A stretch of 64,000 bases of DNA from Clostridia bacterium (GTDB lineage Bacteria; Bacillota; Clostridia; Christensenellales; CAG-138), in NCBI GenBank assembly GCA_017523925.1, contig JAFWVQ010000066.1, positions 1 through 64,000 on the forward strand, given 5' to 3'. The notes below the pieces were generated by a model. The model was not told the DNA's origin. It worked only from the letters and a program-made list of their open reading frames with translations, and searched no databases. Below, piece by piece: positions 17,194-27,251 of the stretch. Each line of letters begins with the position of its first letter. The stretch's first letter is position 1. Both the position numbers and the translations under genes were made by a program.

Positions 17194-17222
17194 TTGAATG
17201 CGGACGCAAGTTAGTGTATGCT
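17194..17222 (+). promoter_or_regulatory. possible promoter overlapped by the first palindromic operator
   Basis: TTGAAT (17194-17199) lies 17 bases before TATGCT (17217-17222). The -10 lies inside the 17210-17225 palindrome, the position expected for a repressor that blocks RNA polymerase. Confidence 0.45.
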
Positions 17223-17225
17223 AAC
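17210..17225. promoter_or_regulatory. palindromic operator 1, GTTAG-N5-GCTAAC class
   Basis: GTTAGTGTATGCTAAC. The TTAG-N6-CTAA core resembles DtxR-family metal-regulator boxes. Identical half-sites and spacing occur at 17308, 24126 and 24783. Confidence 0.75.
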
Positions 17226-17307: not shown

Positions 17308-17323
17308 GTTAGTGCGTGCTAAC
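17308..17323. promoter_or_regulatory. palindromic operator 2, same class
   Basis: GTTAGTGCGTGCTAAC, 98 bp downstream of the first copy and 45 bp before the start of the FMN-binding/dockerin gene. The two copies differ at only two inner positions and both are followed by CCCG. Confidence 0.75.
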
Positions 17324-17368: not shown

Positions 17369-19066
17369 ATGAAACAGGGTTCCGTTATCAGGAAGCTCGC
17401 TTCCGTCCTTCTGGCGCTGATGATAGTATTCTTCGCCGCCTACCCGCTCGGCATCCGTGCCGAGGGCATCGCGCCCCAAGAGATCTACAGCGGCCGCGCG
17501 ATAGTATCCCACTATGACTACGGCCTCACCGTTTACGTTACGGTGAACGGCGGCGTGATCGAGTCCATCACCGCCGAGCACGACACGGACGGCTACGATC
17601 CCTCCAACAACACCTTCTGGAACTGGGCTGTGAACGGGCGCACCGTTGGCGGCACGTTCAAGCCGAGCCCGCTTGCGCAGATAGTTGAAACGCAGTCCAC
17701 CGAGAATATCGACGTTGTGACCGGCGCCACCTTCACCTGCCGCGCCCTCGTTCAGGCTGTCGAACGCGCGCTTGAGCAGGTCCCGAGCGCCGATGACGGC
17801 GTTTATGCGCTTATGAACATCCCCTATGAAGCCTTCTACGGCGCGGAAAACGCCGAAAACTACGACGTTGACGCGGTCTCCTCCGCAACGAACAAGGCTG
17901 GCAACTACAATCTTGCGGGCGGCAGCTTCCATTCCGCAGCCACCGCAGGCTACGACGAAAACGGCGATCTGATCGCGGTCGGCGCACAGAACGGCGCGCA
18001 TATCGAGGGCGTTACCTGGCCCGTTTACCTCGAGAGCGAGGCTATGCTCGCTTCCTTTGAGGAGCTCGGCGGCATCCACGTTACCGATGAGCGCGAGGTC
18101 ATGGTCGCCTCCGCCGCGCACGGAAACGTGAACGGAACTCTGCTTACCGGCAGAGCGTCGCTCATGGAAGCGCCCGCGTATTCCTACTACCTCCTTTCCG
18201 AAGCCCCCGCTTATTACATGAATGCCGCTATCGAGGGCGGCTCCCCCGCCTTCTCCCCCGTTTGCGGCGAGGCCGAGGCGCTTGGCGAAATCGATCCCGC
18301 CGTCAGCTACACCACGCGCTGGGGCGACGTTGAAGTGAACCTCTCCTGCGCCGAGGAAGCCTCCGCCATGCAGATAAACGCGATGGTCTTCACCGCCGAG
18401 GACGGCACCACCGCAGGCATGATCCATCTTTACAACATCTGGGCGGGCAGCAAGATCGGCTGGAACGCCGAGCGGGTCGTTGGGCTGGATAACAAGAAGC
18501 TCACCGCCGTTCGCTTCTACTGCAACGACCGCGAGGGCAATTACTTCGTTTACGACTACGCGCTCGATGAGGACATCAAGGAGGTCTATCTCGGGACCGT
18601 TGCTGCGGAATTCACCTCACCGCTCGAGATCGCGGTATCGAACCTTCCCGAGGATGCCGAGAATGTGACCGCCATCGCCTATTATTCGGTCGGCAAGCAG
18701 CGCTTCTATCTCACCGAGACCGAGGTAAACGAAAACGGCGATACCGTTCCCTGTTGGCTCCCGGTTGCGGACGGCAAGGTGGCGCTTACGACCGCGCTTG
18801 TCGATGAGCGGATAGTTTCGGTCGAATTCACGAGCGATAACTATGCGATACGCAAGGCAAGCTGCGAATACGCGCCGATATTCTCGGCGGGCGACGTGAA
18901 CGCCGACGGCAGCGTGAACATCGCGGATGCGGTCCTTGCCGCCCGCGCCGCGCTCGAGCTCACGGAGCTGAACGAGGGGCAGCTCGGGGCAGCCGATATG
19001 AACGGCGACGGAAGAGTCACCATTGTGGACGCGATCCTGATTCTGAGAAGCTCCCTCGCGATTTGA
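17369..19066 (+). CDS. secreted FMN-binding protein with C-terminal dockerin
   Basis: 565 aa. A signal peptide (about 1-31) is followed by an FMN-binding domain (about 38-137) with DVVTGAT at 115-121; in this family FMN is joined covalently to the Thr (here T121) by ApbE. A second related motif, DAVSSAT (168-174), may be a degenerate second site. A middle region of about 330 residues is not identified (some resemblance to Tp47-type surface proteins is only an impression). The last 58 residues are a type I dockerin: DVNADGSVNIADA and DMNGDGRVTIVDA calcium loops. AAGGAG at 17356-17361 fixes ATG 17369. Two palindromic operators lie upstream. It probably carries electrons at the cell surface and docks to a cohesin. 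Confidence 0.85.
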   Translation: MKQGSVIRKLASVLLALMIVFFAAYPLGIRAEGIAPQEIYSGRAIVSHYDYGLTVYVTVNGGVIESITAEHDTDGYDPSNNTFWNWAVNGRTVGGTFKPSPLAQIVETQSTENIDVVTGATFTCRALVQAVERALEQVPSADDGVYALMNIPYEAFYGAENAENYDVDAVSSATNKAGNYNLAGGSFHSAATAGYDENGDLIAVGAQNGAHIEGVTWPVYLESEAMLASFEELGGIHVTDEREVMVASAAHGNVNGTLLTGRASLMEAPAYSYYLLSEAPAYYMNAAIEGGSPAFSPVCGEAEALGEIDPAVSYTTRWGDVEVNLSCAEEASAMQINAMVFTAEDGTTAGMIHLYNIWAGSKIGWNAERVVGLDNKKLTAVRFYCNDREGNYFVYDYALDEDIKEVYLGTVAAEFTSPLEIAVSNLPEDAENVTAIAYYSVGKQRFYLTETEVNENGDTVPCWLPVADGKVALTTALVDERIVSVEFTSDNYAIRKASCEYAPIFSAGDVNADGSVNIADAVLAARAALELTELNEGQLGAADMNGDGRVTIVDAILILRSSLAI

Positions 19067-19164: not shown

Positions 19165-19202
19165 GGCGCCGAGCGTTCATCGCCTCGGCGCCCTGCCTTT
19201 TT
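19165..19202 (+). terminator. terminator after the dockerin gene
   Basis: GGCGCCGAG (19165-19173) and CTCGGCGCC (19184-19192) form a perfect 9-bp stem followed by CTGCCTTTTT. It separates the dockerin gene from the membrane redox genes, though read-through is possible. Confidence 0.8.
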
Positions 19203-19295: not shown

Positions 19296-20240
19296 ATGAA
19301 AAACGAGAATAAAAAAACGGGTTTCCCCGTAAGATCGCTGCTGTTCCTCCTGCCGCTCACGGTCATGGCGGCGATCGTGCTGAACGCGCTTACGTCCATG
19401 CCCGGCGTTCCGAGCGAGCTTCCCGAAAAGCTCGCCTATACGGAAGCATCGGCAAGCCCCGCGGAAACGACAATGCCCGATGAGAGCTCCGCCCATGGTG
19501 CGGAGCCCGACGAAACGGCGACCGCCGAGCCTGCCGTATCCCCCGAGCGCACGACCGAGCCGCAGACCCCCGAGGATACCGGCGCGCCCGAGCCCACGGC
19601 TCCGCAGAGCACCGAGCCGACCGGCTCAATGTCCTCCCCCGCGCCGACTGCCGAGCCGTCTGCGCCTTCCGCCGCGCCTTCCACTGCGCCCGCTTCGGAG
19701 GCTCAGCCCACCGCGACACCCGACGCAGCGCAGGCTCCCGGCAGCACCTCCGCGCCGACCGCCGCGCCCACAGCCGCGCCCACTTCCGCGCCTACTTCCG
19801 CGCCGACTTCCGCGCCTACCGAAGCGCCGGGCAAATACAGGGACGGCACCTATACCGCAAGCGCACGCTGCACCGACGGCGCGATCTTCGACTACACGGT
19901 CGAGGTGACGATCGGCATACAGGGCGGCGAAATCAAGAGCGTGAACGCCGTTCGCAGCAACGACGCATCCGACCCCGACTTCCACGAAACCAACGCCGTG
20001 TTCATGGATATGGCGGTGAACGGCGCCGGCGGTCCCGGCGTTCCCGCGCAGATAATCGCCAATAACGGCGAGGGCGGCGTGGACGCGGTTTCGGGGGCCA
20101 CGTTCAGCTCCAACGCGATAGCAAGCGCCGCCAACAGCGCGCTTGCAAAGGCGGCAAGGAGCGGCGCGAGTGCATTTGAGCCGTTCATTATCCCTCAAAA
20201 GCGCGCTTTTGCGGGTAAGGCCGAAAAGGAGGCGCTTTAA
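19296..20240 (+). CDS. membrane-tethered FMN-binding protein with long Pro/Ala/Thr linker
   Basis: 314 aa. One membrane helix (about 13-33) anchors the protein, a disordered linker rich in Pro, Ala, Thr, Ser and Glu (about 45-178, with TSAPTSAPTSAPT repeats) spans the wall, and a C-terminal FMN-binding domain (about 179-290) ends in DAVSGAT (263-269). T269 is the predicted site of covalent FMN. The architecture is that of wall-spanning flavoproteins used in extracellular electron transfer. It is four bases from the next gene. There is no clear ribosome-binding site, so the start is less secure than its neighbours. Confidence 0.85.
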   Translation: MKNENKKTGFPVRSLLFLLPLTVMAAIVLNALTSMPGVPSELPEKLAYTEASASPAETTMPDESSAHGAEPDETATAEPAVSPERTTEPQTPEDTGAPEPTAPQSTEPTGSMSSPAPTAEPSAPSAAPSTAPASEAQPTATPDAAQAPGSTSAPTAAPTAAPTSAPTSAPTSAPTEAPGKYRDGTYTASARCTDGAIFDYTVEVTIGIQGGEIKSVNAVRSNDASDPDFHETNAVFMDMAVNGAGGPGVPAQIIANNGEGGVDAVSGATFSSNAIASAANSALAKAARSGASAFEPFIIPQKRAFAGKAEKEAL

Positions 20241-20243
20241 GCG

Positions 20244-20696
20244 ATGAAGCATATCAATTTTATCGTCAAGGCGGCAAGTCTTGTGCTGGCCTTGGGCGTG
20301 CTGGCGGTTTACTCGCTCATAGCAGCCGATCGCCAAAACAAGCTCAAGGAATATGAGAGCAAGGTCGCCGAGATCGAGGCGCACAACGCAAGAGCGCTCG
20401 ATCGGCGCAGCGATGCGCCTGCCTCCCGCTATCGGGACGGCGTTTACGAGGGCAGCGCGCGCGGCTTTCGCGGCGAGATCGCGGTGGTTGTGACGGTCGA
20501 GAACGGCGCGATAACCGCCGTTGAGATCGCATCCGCCGAAAAGGAGGACGTCGCCTATCTCATACGCGCAAAGAAGGTGATCGAGAGCATCATCGAAAAG
20601 CAGTCCGCCGAGGTGGACGCGATCAGCGGCGCTACCTTCAGCTCAAACGGAATAAGGAGCGCCGTTATCGAGGCGCTCAAGGCGGCGGAGGGCTAA
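20244..20696 (+). CDS. single-domain membrane FMN-binding protein
   Basis: 150 aa. An N-terminal membrane helix (about 8-28), a short charged helix (about 30-55) and one FMN-binding domain (about 62-148) with DAISGAT at 125-131; T131 is the predicted flavin site. It resembles RnfG/NqrC-type subunits cut down to one domain. It lies 3 bases after the long-linker flavoprotein and 3 bases before the polyferredoxin, so the three are one translational unit. It probably passes electrons from the polyferredoxin to the longer protein. Confidence 0.87.
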   Translation: MKHINFIVKAASLVLALGVLAVYSLIAADRQNKLKEYESKVAEIEAHNARALDRRSDAPASRYRDGVYEGSARGFRGEIAVVVTVENGAITAVEIASAEKEDVAYLIRAKKVIESIIEKQSAEVDAISGATFSSNGIRSAVIEALKAAEG

Positions 20697-20699
20697 AAA

Positions 20700-21590
20700 A
20701 TGGAACGGAAAGCAAGCATACCCGTCCGCAGCGGCGAGCAGCTCAAAAGAAGCAGGCGCGATCACGCCCTTGTGCGCGCGGCAGTGCAGCTCGCATTCTT
20801 TATTGCGATGCCATCCGCATTTTACGCGGGCTTTGCGGGGCTGAAGAGCATCTTCGAGAGCATCCGCGCGGGCTCCGCGATCGAGACGGACGGCTTCCTT
20901 TGGGCGCTGATTCTCACCTGCGCGTTCACGATCGTTTTCGGCCGCTTCTTCTGCGGCTATATCTGCGCGTTCGGCTCTTTCGGCGACCTCATCCACCTGC
21001 TCTCGGGGCTCATCCAAACCAAGCTCTTCAAGCGCAAAAAGCAGTTTGAGCTGCCCGAGAAGGCATCGAAGCCGCTTCGCATCCTCAAGTATCTGAATCT
21101 CGCGTTCATCGTTGTATTCGCGGGCTTCGGGCTGTACGCCAAGCTTCGCGGCGCAAGCGTTTGGGACGTGTTTTCGCAGATAACGGCGCTGAGCTTCTCG
21201 CTCGGCGGCATGAGCGCGGGCATCGTCCTTTTCGCGGTCGTGATCGCGCTGATGGCCGTGAAGGAGCGCGGCTTCTGCCAATTTCTCTGCCCGCTCGGCG
21301 CCCTCTTCGCGCTGCTTCCCATGCTCGGCAGCCTCAGGCGCAACACGGAGCGCTGCATCAAGGGCTGCTCGATATGCAAGAAGAACTGCCCCGTCGATCT
21401 CGAGCTTGAAGCGGACGGCTTTTCAAACGGCGAATGCCTCGGCTGCTGTAAATGTGCCGCCGCCTGCCCGCGCGCGAACATCGCCCACCCCGAGCAAAAG
21501 CTTATCAAAAGCGGGCTTGCCGCCGTGCTGATCAAGGCCGCGCTGTTCTTCGCCCTCGGCACGCTGATCGGGCTGTGCAGGTTCTTTTGA
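20700..21590 (+). CDS. NapH/YccM-like membrane polyferredoxin
   Basis: 296 aa. About five membrane helices (near 27-47, 62-80, 128-146, 160-180, 275-294). Membrane-embedded cysteine pairs CGYICAFG and CQFLCPLG are the Fer4_5 motif of NapH, RdxA and NosR C-terminal parts. Two [4Fe-4S] binding motifs follow near 220-260: CIKGCSICKKNCP and CLGCCKCAAACP. It should carry electrons across the membrane to the two flavoproteins encoded upstream. GGAGGG just before the ATG lies in the end of the previous gene. No quinol or NADH oxidase subunit and no apbE is in the window, so electron donor and flavin transferase are encoded elsewhere. Confidence 0.88.
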   Translation: MERKASIPVRSGEQLKRSRRDHALVRAAVQLAFFIAMPSAFYAGFAGLKSIFESIRAGSAIETDGFLWALILTCAFTIVFGRFFCGYICAFGSFGDLIHLLSGLIQTKLFKRKKQFELPEKASKPLRILKYLNLAFIVVFAGFGLYAKLRGASVWDVFSQITALSFSLGGMSAGIVLFAVVIALMAVKERGFCQFLCPLGALFALLPMLGSLRRNTERCIKGCSICKKNCPVDLELEADGFSNGECLGCCKCAAACPRANIAHPEQKLIKSGLAAVLIKAALFFALGTLIGLCRFF

Positions 21591-21673
21591 CGCATTATCC
21601 TCCATCCTGCTTGACATGGGTCCCGATCGGCCAAGGGTTTGGACCTATAAACGGAAAATACGCCTAAACGAAA

Positions 21674-21698
21674 AATACGCCCGAAAGGCGTATTTTTT
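21674..21698. terminator. bidirectional terminator between convergent genes
   Basis: AATACGCC and GGCGTATT (21674-21681, 21687-21694) enclose CGAAA; A-rich and T-rich flanks on the two sides would work in both directions. It separates the redox locus from the convergent phosphatase gene. Confidence 0.85.
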
Positions 21699-24125: not shown

Positions 24126-24141
24126 GTTAGGGAACGCTAAC
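24126..24141. promoter_or_regulatory. palindromic operator 3 at the feo transcription start
   Basis: GTTAGGGAACGCTAAC, same half-sites and spacing as the copies at 17210 and 17308, placed just after the -10 box where a metal-bound repressor would block initiation. A further TTAG follows at 24142. Confidence 0.8.
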
Positions 24142-24213
24142 TTAGTTTGCGTCAAGCAACCGAAATTTGGCGTTCACCGAATTGAAGTTATATCGAAAGG
24201 AAGTGTTCTTTTG

Positions 24214-24423
24214 ATGCCTTTGACTCTTGCGCCCATTGGTGAGGGCAGTATCATCAAGCGGATCGGCGGCAGTGCCGAGGTAAAGAAGCATCTCAGCGAT
24301 CTGGGCTTCGTTCCCGGCGGCGAGGTGCGCGTCATCTCCATGCTCGGCGGAAACGTGATCGTAAGCGTTAAGGAATCGCGCATCGCGATCAGCCGCGAAA
24401 TGGCGATGAAGATCATGGTATGA
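24214..24423 (+). CDS. feoA: FeoA domain protein 1
   Basis: 69-aa SH3-like FeoA protein, a cytoplasmic partner of FeoB in ferrous iron uptake. PIGEGSIIKRIGG, HLSDLGFVPGGEVRVI and GNVIVSVKESRIAISREMA are the family features. ATG 24214 follows GAAAGGAAG; a TTG one codon before it is also possible. It has its own promoter and operator upstream and is followed by a dispersed repeat, then a second feoA. Confidence 0.93.
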   Translation: MPLTLAPIGEGSIIKRIGGSAEVKKHLSDLGFVPGGEVRVISMLGGNVIVSVKESRIAISREMAMKIMV

Positions 24424-24494: not shown

Positions 24495-24716
24495 ATGAAA
24501 ACTTTGAAAGAGACCCCCATCGGCGCGACCGTCCGCGTTGTGAAGCTTCACGGCGAAGGCGCGGTCAAGCGCAGGATCATGGACATGGGCATCACCAAGG
24601 GCGTGGAGGTACACGTTCGCAAGGTGGCGCCGCTCGGCGATCCGATCGAGGTCAACGTTCGCGGCTACGAGCTCTCCATCCGCAAGGCGGACGCGAACAT
24701 GATCGAGGTCGAATAA
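24495..24716 (+). CDS. feoA: FeoA domain protein 2
   Basis: 73-aa second FeoA, only distantly similar to the first. It has PIGATVRVVKLHGEGAVKRR, MDMGITKGVEVHVRKVAPLGDP and VNVRGYELSIRKADA motifs (each shown in part), the usual FeoA fold markers. GGGAGG 8 bases upstream of the ATG. Tandem feoA genes before feoB are common in Clostridia. A separate operator at 24783 follows it, so feoB may also be controlled independently. Confidence 0.93.
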   Translation: MKTLKETPIGATVRVVKLHGEGAVKRRIMDMGITKGVEVHVRKVAPLGDPIEVNVRGYELSIRKADANMIEVE

Positions 24717-24782: not shown

Positions 24783-24798
24783 GTTAGCTTTTGCTAAC
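24783..24798. promoter_or_regulatory. palindromic operator 4 upstream of feoB
   Basis: GTTAGCTTTTGCTAAC, a perfect inverted repeat of GTTAGC with a 4-base centre. It lies 44 bp before the feoB start. No good -35/-10 pair is seen next to it. Confidence 0.75.
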
Positions 24799-24841: not shown

Positions 24842-27251
24842 ATGGCAAACATGAGAATAGCCCTTGCGGGCAACCCGAACAGCGGCAAAACAACGCTGTT
24901 CAACGCGCTGACGGGCTCGAACCAGTTCGTTGGCAACTGGCCTGGCGTAACGGTCGAAAAGAAGGAAGGCAAGCTGAAAAAGCATGATGACGTTACCATC
25001 ACCGACCTTCCCGGCATCTACTCGCTTTCGCCCTACACGCTCGAGGAGGTCGTGGCAAGAAACTACCTCATCGGCGAGCGTCCGGACGCGATACTGAACC
25101 GTTGACGGCACGAACCTCGAGAGGAACCTCTATCTCACCACCCAACTTCTCGAGCTCGGCATCCCCGTCGTTATCGCGATAAACATGATGGATATCGTGA
25201 AAAAGAACGGCGACAAGCTGAACACGCAGGAGCTTTCAAGGAGCCTCGGCTGCCCGATCGTAGAGATCTCCGCACTCAAGGGCACGGGCGTGCAGGAGGC
25301 TGCGGAGGCCGCTATCAAGGCGGCTCAGGGCGGCAAGAAGCCCCCGGTCAGCACTTTTTCCGGCACGGTGGAGCACGCGATTGCGCATATCGAGGAGGCA
25401 ACGGTTCACGGCTTCCCCGAGGAAAAGCAGCGCTGGTATGCTGTGAAGCTTTTCGAGCGCGATGAGAAGGTGCTCGAGGAGCTGAACCTGCCCGAGGCGA
25501 CCCGCGCTCATATCGAAAAGGATATCGCGGCGGTCGAAGCGGAGCTTGACGATGACGCGGAAAGCATCATCACCAACGAGCGCTATGTTTACATAGCGGA
25601 GCTCATCAAGGGCGCGTACAAGAAGAAAAACGCGGGCAAGCTCACGGTTTCCGATAAGATCGACCGCGTTGTGACGAACCGCTGGCTCGCGCTTCCGATT
25701 TTTGCGCTGGTCATGTTCCTTGTTTACTACATCGCCGTTTCCAAGGTCGGCGGCGCGGCAACCGATTGGGCGAACGACGGCCTGTTCGGCGACGGCTTCC
25801 ATCTTTTCGGCATCGGCAGCAAGGCATATAACGACGAAATGGACGAATACGCCAAGGAATTCGTTTTCACCGACGATATCCGCTCCACCGTTGAAGCGGC
25901 CGAAAAAGCGGGCGTTATCGGTGCGGACGAGCTTATGGGCGCAATTGAGGACGAGGACTTCGGCGCATTTGAAGAGGCGCTCGGCACCTATGGCGACGCG
26001 CTCGATGAAGCGGGCTTCGGCATAGGCGAGACCGTTGACGCGGCGCTCGAGGAAGCCCCCGCGACCGAGGACTACGGCGTTTGGGTGCCCGGCATACCGG
26101 TGCTCGCGGAGCGCCTGCTCGAAAAGCTCAACACCCCCGAATGGCTGAACAGCCTGATCCTCGACGGCGTTATCGCGGGCGTTGGCGCGGTGCTCGGCTT
26201 CGTGCCCCAGATGCTCGTCGTGTTCCTGTTCCTTGCGTTCCTTGAAAGCTGCGGCTATATGGCGCGCGTTGCGTTCGTTATGGACCGTATCTTCAGAAGG
26301 TTCGGCCTCTCGGGCAAATCCTTCATCCCGATGCTCATCGGCGTCGGCTGCGGCGTTCCCGGCATCATGGCTTCGCGCACGATCGAAAACGAGCGCGACC
26401 GCCGTATGACGATAATGACCACCACCTTCATCCCCTGCGGCGCGAAGATACCGATCATCGCGCTGATCGCAAGCGCGCTGTTCGGCGGCGCATGGTGGGT
26501 GGCGCCGAGCGCATACTTCCTCGGCTTTGCAGCGATCGTGGTTTCGGGCATCATCCTCAAGAAAACGAAGATGTTCGCGGGCGACCCCGCTCCGTTCGTT
26601 ATGGAGCTTCCCGCCTACCATTGGCCCACGCTTTCCAACGTGCTGCGCAGCATGTGGGAGCGCGGCTGGTCCTTCATCAAGAAGGCCGGAACTGTCATCT
26701 TCCTTGCCACCATCTTCATCTGGTCGGCATCCCGCTTCGGCTGGGTGGACGGCAAATTCCTCTTCGACGTGGACATGGAGCTTGAAGCAAGCCTCCTCGG
26801 CAGGATCGGCAGCGCGATCAAATGGATCTTCGCGCCCCTCGGCTTCGGCAGCGGCGACGAAGGCACCAAGGCGACCATCGCCACGATCATGGGTCTTGTG
26901 GCAAAGGAAGAGGTCGTGGGCGTGTTCGGCGTGCTCGACTTCGGCGGCCTGACTCAGCTTGCGGGCTACAGCTTCCTGATCTTCAACCTGCTCTGCGCGC
27001 CCTGCTTTGCGGCGATCGGCGCGATCCGCAGGGAGATGAATTCGGCGAAGTGGACCTGGTTCGCGATCGGCTATCAGTGCGTATTTGCCTACGTTATCGC
27101 GCTGATCTTCTATCAGCTCGGCATGCTGTTCATCGGCAGTGCAAACGCTGTTTGGCTCGTTGTCGCGCTCATCCTCCTTGCGGGGCTCATCTACCTCCTT
27201 TTCAGGCCCTACAAGGAAGCCACCAAGCTCGAAATGAAGCTTAAAAAGTAA
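24842..27251 (+). pseudogene. feoB: ferrous iron transporter FeoB with a frameshift near 25100
   Basis: Two frames together give a normal FeoB of about 803 aa. The first (24842-25105) has the G1 loop GNPNSGKTT, the G3 DLPG and ends ILNR-stop. The second frame resumes at VDGTNLERN (25101 on) and has G4 NMMD, the membrane domain with GVPGIMASRTIENERDRR, FIPCGAK and a final cluster of helices to 27251. The family expects ILN-I-VDGTN, so two bases (AT) are missing after 25099. An acidic insert of about 110 residues follows the first membrane helix, as in other clostridial FeoB. It is either a real recent mutation or an assembly/sequencing error; the rest of the gene is intact. Confidence 0.85.

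Follow-up and report, generated by a model that had tools for sequence, protein, structure and literature searches.

The 64-kb stretch of DNA analysed here (the window) appears to encode an iron-regulated, scaffold-docked flavoprotein that would end a wall-crossing flavin chain and reduce ferric iron for FeoB, a reading to which we assign a probability of roughly 0.58. The protein is the product of gene 1, the first of a four-gene operon lying upstream of feoA and feoB (Table 1).

Table 1. Features of the gene 1 operon and the adjoining feo genes, numbered from the first base of the window
Feature	Position	Strand	Remarks
Promoter-like boxes	17194..17222	+	-35 TTGAAT (17194-17199), 17-base spacer, -10 TATGCT (17217-17222)
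Operator 1	17210..17225	.	GTTAGTGTATGCTAAC; exact GTTAG-N6-CTAAC; conserved in L045 and L194
Operator 2	17308..17323	.	GTTAGTGCGTGCTAAC; GTTAG-N6-CTAAC; conserved in L045
Gene 1	17369..19066	+	Secreted FMN_bind/Tp47-like/dockerin protein, 565 aa
N-terminal signal peptide	17369..17464	+	Residues 1-32, by eye from sequence; helix 4-22 in predicted model
FMN_bind domain	17525..17776	+	Residues 53-136; PF04205; structural match 8p2a
Flavinylation motif DVVTGAT	17711..17731	+	Residues 115-121; putative acceptor T121
Tp47-like module	17795..18868	+	Residues 143-500; alpha/beta part and Ig-like domains
Second, altered motif DAVSSAT	17870..17890	+	Residues 168-174
Type I dockerin	18881..19063	+	Residues 505-565; two calcium loops; profile and structural match
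Hairpin, then T-tract	19165..19192	+	Between genes 1 and 2; region z -2.0; strong; possible partial terminator
Gene 2	19296..20240	+	N-terminal membrane anchor; ~134-residue Pro/Thr/Ala/Ser linker; FMN_bind 201-283, motif DAVSGAT
Gene 3	20244..20696	+	N-terminal membrane anchor; FMN_bind 74-146, motif DAISGAT
Gene 4	20700..21590	+	NapH-like polytopic Fe-S membrane protein (Fer4_5)
Terminator-like hairpin	21670..21698	+	Closes operon
Operator 5′ of feoA genes	24126..24141	.	GTTAGGGAACGCTAAC; just 3′ of TTGACA-17-TATTAT
FeoA-like small protein	24211..24423	+	70 aa; assigned by eye
FeoA	24495..24716	+	PF04023, E 5e-22
Operator 5′ of feoB	24783..24798	.	GTTAGCTTTTGCTAAC; GTTAG-N6-CTAAC
feoB ferrous iron transporter	24842..27251	+	Reading frame broken near 25098

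Domain structure of gene 1

The reading frame of gene 1 is genuine, with an ATG start and an AAGGAG site just 5′ of it. Its FMN_bind domain is recognized by Pfam (PF04205, E 4e-13, 50.2 bits against a cut-off of 22), and residues 36-138 of the AlphaFold2 model (mean pLDDT 82) match a domain of the multi-flavinylated protein SaFMN3 (8p2a) with a VIA Z of 12.0 and an rmsd of 1.8. The flavinylation motif that the earlier note placed at T121 lies within this domain as D115-VVTGA-T121 and fits the FMN_bind pattern Dxx[ST]GA[ST], the secretion signal being judged by eye; T121 would carry covalent FMN. At the other end of the protein, the type I dockerin with two calcium loops described in the same note scores above the Pfam cut-off (PF00404, residues 507-558, E 1e-10, 41.6 bits against 22.9), and both loops are intact (DVNADGSVNIAD and DMNGDGRVTIVD). 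A dockerin shape at the C-terminus, on which the earlier proposal depended, is borne out by the model, as residues 505-565 superpose on solved dockerins, among them one of Clostridium thermocellum taken from a cohesin complex (2ccl_B; VIA Z 11.6, rmsd 1.2 Å, 61 residues). By profile and predicted fold the C-terminus is thus a type I dockerin, and cohesin binding would be its expected role.

The middle third, previously regarded as unidentified, turned out to be identifiable: the predicted fold of residues 143-500 matches Tp47 (1o75) with a VIA Z of 15.3 and an rmsd of 4.7 over 280 residues (Foldseek E 6.6e-9). The likeness is seen by fold comparison only; a PDB profile search with the module did not find 1o75. 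The second, altered motif DAVSSAT that had been read in this region is present at residues 168-174.

Orthologous loci and the cohesin scaffold

A sister species (L045/G007, rumen MAG RUG13931) has a counterpart of gene 1 that is 88% identical along the whole length, and a genome of another genus (L194/G359) has a full-length ortholog of 582 aa. The operon of the sister species includes a second FMN_bind-dockerin gene, with NusG_II, Gx and ApbE at its end. In the genome of the other genus, where 11 cohesins occur, the neighbours of the ortholog are ApbE, a NapH-like protein and an N-anchored protein whose FMN_bind-type domains number four by a visual count of motifs. This type of FMN_bind joined to a dockerin is found in only 3 of 103 family genomes.

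Cohesins, whose presence in the genome the earlier note made decisive for docking, gave 21 matches in the 2.59 Mb assembly (95% complete), alongside 83 dockerins. ApbE, which that note also looked to, is encoded on a different contig from gene 1, with NusG_II and Gx neighbours (E 4.5e-82). In one protein of 2014 residues (L088), at least 10 stretches score as cohesins above threshold; they are accompanied by a proline-rich stalk and, at the C-terminus, by a sorting-type signal (PPTGT, a hydrophobic stretch and RRKED) that recurs in two other cohesin proteins. Judged from this signal, L088 is a putative wall-anchored multi-cohesin scaffoldin. The recognition positions of the gene 1 dockerin, IA/IV, belong to the VA, IA or TA kind that is common in the genome. 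Dockerin-like sequences do occur outside known complexes (PMC9012536), and the gene 1 dockerin could be non-cognate or vestigial on a protein that is simply secreted. We regard this as extremely improbable, given that none of the three orthologs has lost either calcium loop, that the sister species has its second FMN_bind-dockerin gene and that cohesin scaffolds are present in these genomes.

The 73 dockerin proteins scanned carry mostly adhesin, LRR, Ig-like, subtilase and thioredoxin-like cargo, and glycoside hydrolases are absent from the 25 commonest cargo families (12 rarer families and seven large proteins lie outside this tally), so the complex that would hold gene 1 looks like a non-cellulolytic surface complex. 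On the same count, a cellulosome with cellulases is less favoured. Elsewhere in the genome, a 1500-aa protein with a phage-type lysozyme, an amidase, Flg_new repeats, two dockerins and two cohesins (L089:5872-10374) is a possible adaptor scaffoldin.

Seven secreted TlpA/redoxin-like dockerin proteins are encoded in the same genome (L102, L121, L124, L133, L140 and L093), and sister genomes encode giant secreted proteins in which FMN_bind and numerous Fn3 repeats come after a redoxin domain (L096:6051-11033; L098:6795-13136). The docked flavin might accordingly supply reductant to the seven dockerin-bearing redoxins and keep protein disulfides, or the proteases and adhesins of the complex, reduced. 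The share of Redoxin matches with dockerins (7 of 12 in the genome, five with WCGPC) and the fusion of redoxin to FMN_bind within one secreted protein speak for such a role. An exclusive FMN supply is weakened by a CcdA-like DsbD_TM protein, which could serve the redoxins; moreover, the operon has no redoxin, and the operator described below is absent from all redoxin-dockerin loci compared. We consider this role quite unlikely.

The downstream flavin and Fe-S genes

Gene 4 matches Fer4_5 (PF12801) at 52.4 bits against a cut-off of 22 and adjoins three FMN_bind genes, the clustering of a PF12801 gene with FMN-binding genes that defines NapH-like flavinylation clusters. The fourth FMN_bind gene of the genome is a short frame that is probably RnfG, since an RnfD gene adjoins it. 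The hairpin that follows gene 1 may lead to separate expression of this gene, and it might keep the dockerin protein well in excess of the anchored flavin proteins. A domain scan of genes 1-4 found no fumarate-reductase-type reductase domain.

Operators shared with feoA and feoB

The window holds four exact copies of the palindrome GTTAG-N6-CTAAC against 0.01 expected, and none of 100 shuffles reaches four; the copies stand only before gene 1 (two sites), feoA (one) and feoB (one). The palindrome resembles the DtxR/IdeR box (TTAGG...CTAA). The -10 box TATGCT of gene 1 sits within operator 1, and the promoter layout is equivalent in G007 (TTGAAT/TATGCT) and G359 (TTGACA/TATACT); a strict promoter scan found none, and these promoter-like boxes come from looser inspection. 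At several loci the operator overlaps or abuts such -10 boxes, as a repressor site would. The frame change in feoB could reflect a fault in the assembly or a true disruption of the gene.

The operator statistics cover the window and the compared loci. In about 1.4 Mb of such sequence (overlaps included) there are 19 distinct exact sites; those other than the sites of the window and of the two orthologs precede Tp47-like genes, metal/peptide-type ABC permeases, and an additional dockerin gene together with its relative. In seven unrelated clostridial loci picked by their Tp47-like protein only, the palindrome lies within 700 bp 5′ of the Tp47-like gene in five and nowhere else in 79 kb; 2000 simulations gave none. 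At one of these loci, a flavodoxin gene stands between the operator and the Tp47-like gene; flavodoxin is a classic iron-starvation gene. The additional dockerin gene (L122:3983-4729, G000 contig C8) encodes a 248-aa protein, has three sites nearby and adjoins both a fused ABC transporter and a methyltransferase-like gene. Sites are likewise found at its relative in G008 (L078), and the 248-aa protein is a candidate second iron-regulated dockerin protein. NikB/NikC-like ABC permease genes on contig C31 of G007 (L097:185-2006) have sites at 1953 and 2087.

Because the palindrome co-occurs with the feo genes, the shared operators favour reductive iron acquisition over general extracellular respiration. 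The same proteins could instead form a scaffold-held terminus for respiration or redox balancing with soluble or solid acceptors, given that an FMN chain is generic and that clusters of NapH-like and multi-FMN proteins have been tied to respiration (PMC8238504). We think this unlikely, since the operator is common to feoA/feoB and other clostridial Tp47-like genes and the operon lacks a fumarate-reductase-type reductase domain. The earlier note had envisaged a flavinylated redox protein held by cohesin-dockerin pairing in an extracellular electron-transfer complex. The structural part of that idea is well supported, as cohesins, a scaffoldin, ApbE, the operon of flavin and NapH-like proteins and an architecture shared by two genera are all found; as to function, iron acquisition now seems the likelier purpose.

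The Tp47-like module in other Clostridia

Searched against 398 genomes of the phylum, a profile of the module matched only the genome of gene 1 at E ≤ 1e-8, so the module is sparse; the PBP-Tp47_a profile falls below its cut-off and appears in L046 only. Elsewhere in Clostridia the module is borne on SLH or choline-binding proteins, and its genes adjoin ApbE (L046, L049), FMN_bind genes (L046, L052) and a NapH-like gene (L052); in L047, the module, FMN_bind and a Shr-like haemoglobin-interacting domain are joined in a single chain. Given these anchors and neighbours, it seems that in gene 1 a flavin surface protein of an existing kind has had its anchor exchanged for a dockerin. D168 and T174 of the altered motif are invariant in 14 aligned copies of the module, at the spacing of a flavinylation motif, and some relatives have a perfect motif (DAVSGAT or DAITGAT). 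This pattern of residues suggests that the module itself may carry a flavin.

The operator also precedes Tp47-like proteins that have no clear FMN_bind domain (L046, L049, L050 and L052), and gene 1 could by that analogy be mainly a surface receptor for an iron or haem source, held on the scaffold, with a minor or structural FMN_bind domain. The FMN motif and FMN_bind domain are fully conserved in the gene 1 orthologs, and the neighbouring genes encode flavin and Fe-S electron carriers, both of which make such a receptor very unlikely.

A possible route of electrons to ferric iron

On the preferred reading, reductive iron acquisition, iron limitation would cause a repressor to leave its GTTAG-N6-CTAAC sites, and the operon would be transcribed along with feoA and feoB. 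A membrane donor (a quinol or a cytosolic donor) would pass electrons to the NapH-like Fe-S protein of gene 4, and this in turn to the short membrane-anchored flavin protein of gene 3. From there they would move to the flavin domain of gene 2, on a Pro/Thr/Ala linker of ~130 residues that would be long enough to cross the wall, and then to the flavin of gene 1, an extracellular flavoprotein that its dockerin would seat on the cohesins of the wall-anchored scaffoldin. Gene 1 would reduce ferric iron, perhaps with the Tp47-like module presenting the iron source, and FeoB would import the resulting Fe2+; against this, we recognized no iron-binding site in the module. The order and direction of electron flow, and iron as the acceptor, are those that we infer.

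A broader picture, to which we would give slightly less than an even chance, is a cellulosome-like, iron-regulated surface complex. In it, a covalently flavinylated reductase would sit on a cohesin scaffold and terminate a flavin wire that crosses the wall, while the Tp47-like module would recur in clostridial surface proteins to serve the iron source and might bear a second flavin. If so, the pairing of cohesins with dockerins, which is known to assemble enzymes and adhesins, would serve to position an electron carrier too, and the result would be an extracellular redox complex of modular build. The picture would also give a lead to the function of the Tp47-like surface module of several clostridial lineages, where an iron-type operator stands beside ApbE and flavin wires.

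Comparison with known systems

In the literature searched, no paper combines a dockerin with FMN-binding, and the papers on dockerins and iron acquisition are, by title and abstract, not on this topic. The fold of residues 143-500 is like that of Treponema pallidum Tp47 (1o75), whereas the identity is 12% and the module of gene 1 is joined to FMN_bind and a dockerin. As in the flavin-based EET of Listeria (PplA/FmnB/EetAB), a secreted ApbE-type flavoprotein would be the terminal extracellular carrier; unlike there, the NapH-like protein is the membrane part and a dockerin replaces lipidation. The PplA model gives 12.4, 19.1 and 18 bits against a cut-off of 325, which sets these proteins apart from PplA-type EET. 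The dockerin and cohesin proteins of ANME (PMC9012536) likewise include dockerins on non-cellulolytic cargo, among it binding proteins for metal uptake, and the organisms transfer electrons; that work does not describe an electron carrier with a dockerin, which gene 1 may be.

With cellulosomal and non-cellulosomal cohesin-dockerin complexes such as those of Ruminococcus flavefaciens (PMC2930009), the present genome shares type I dockerins, a multi-cohesin scaffoldin, and LRR and peptidase cargo; it differs in that adhesin, LRR, Ig-like, subtilase and thioredoxin-like proteins make up most of the cargo, which includes a redox flavoprotein. The NapH-like, multi-flavinylated gene clusters with cell-wall-binding proteins of Meheust et al. 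2021 (PMC8238504), where assimilatory iron reduction was already proposed for several flavinylated systems, resemble the locus in ApbE, FMN_bind, the NapH-like Fe-S membrane protein, a wall-spanning flavin chain and a surface-displayed partner. The main text of that paper mentions neither dockerin nor cohesin, and an operator common to feo, seen here, is not described in it. Its surface partners are SLH, Rib, FIVAR and LysM; gene 1 instead has a dockerin for cohesin pairing.
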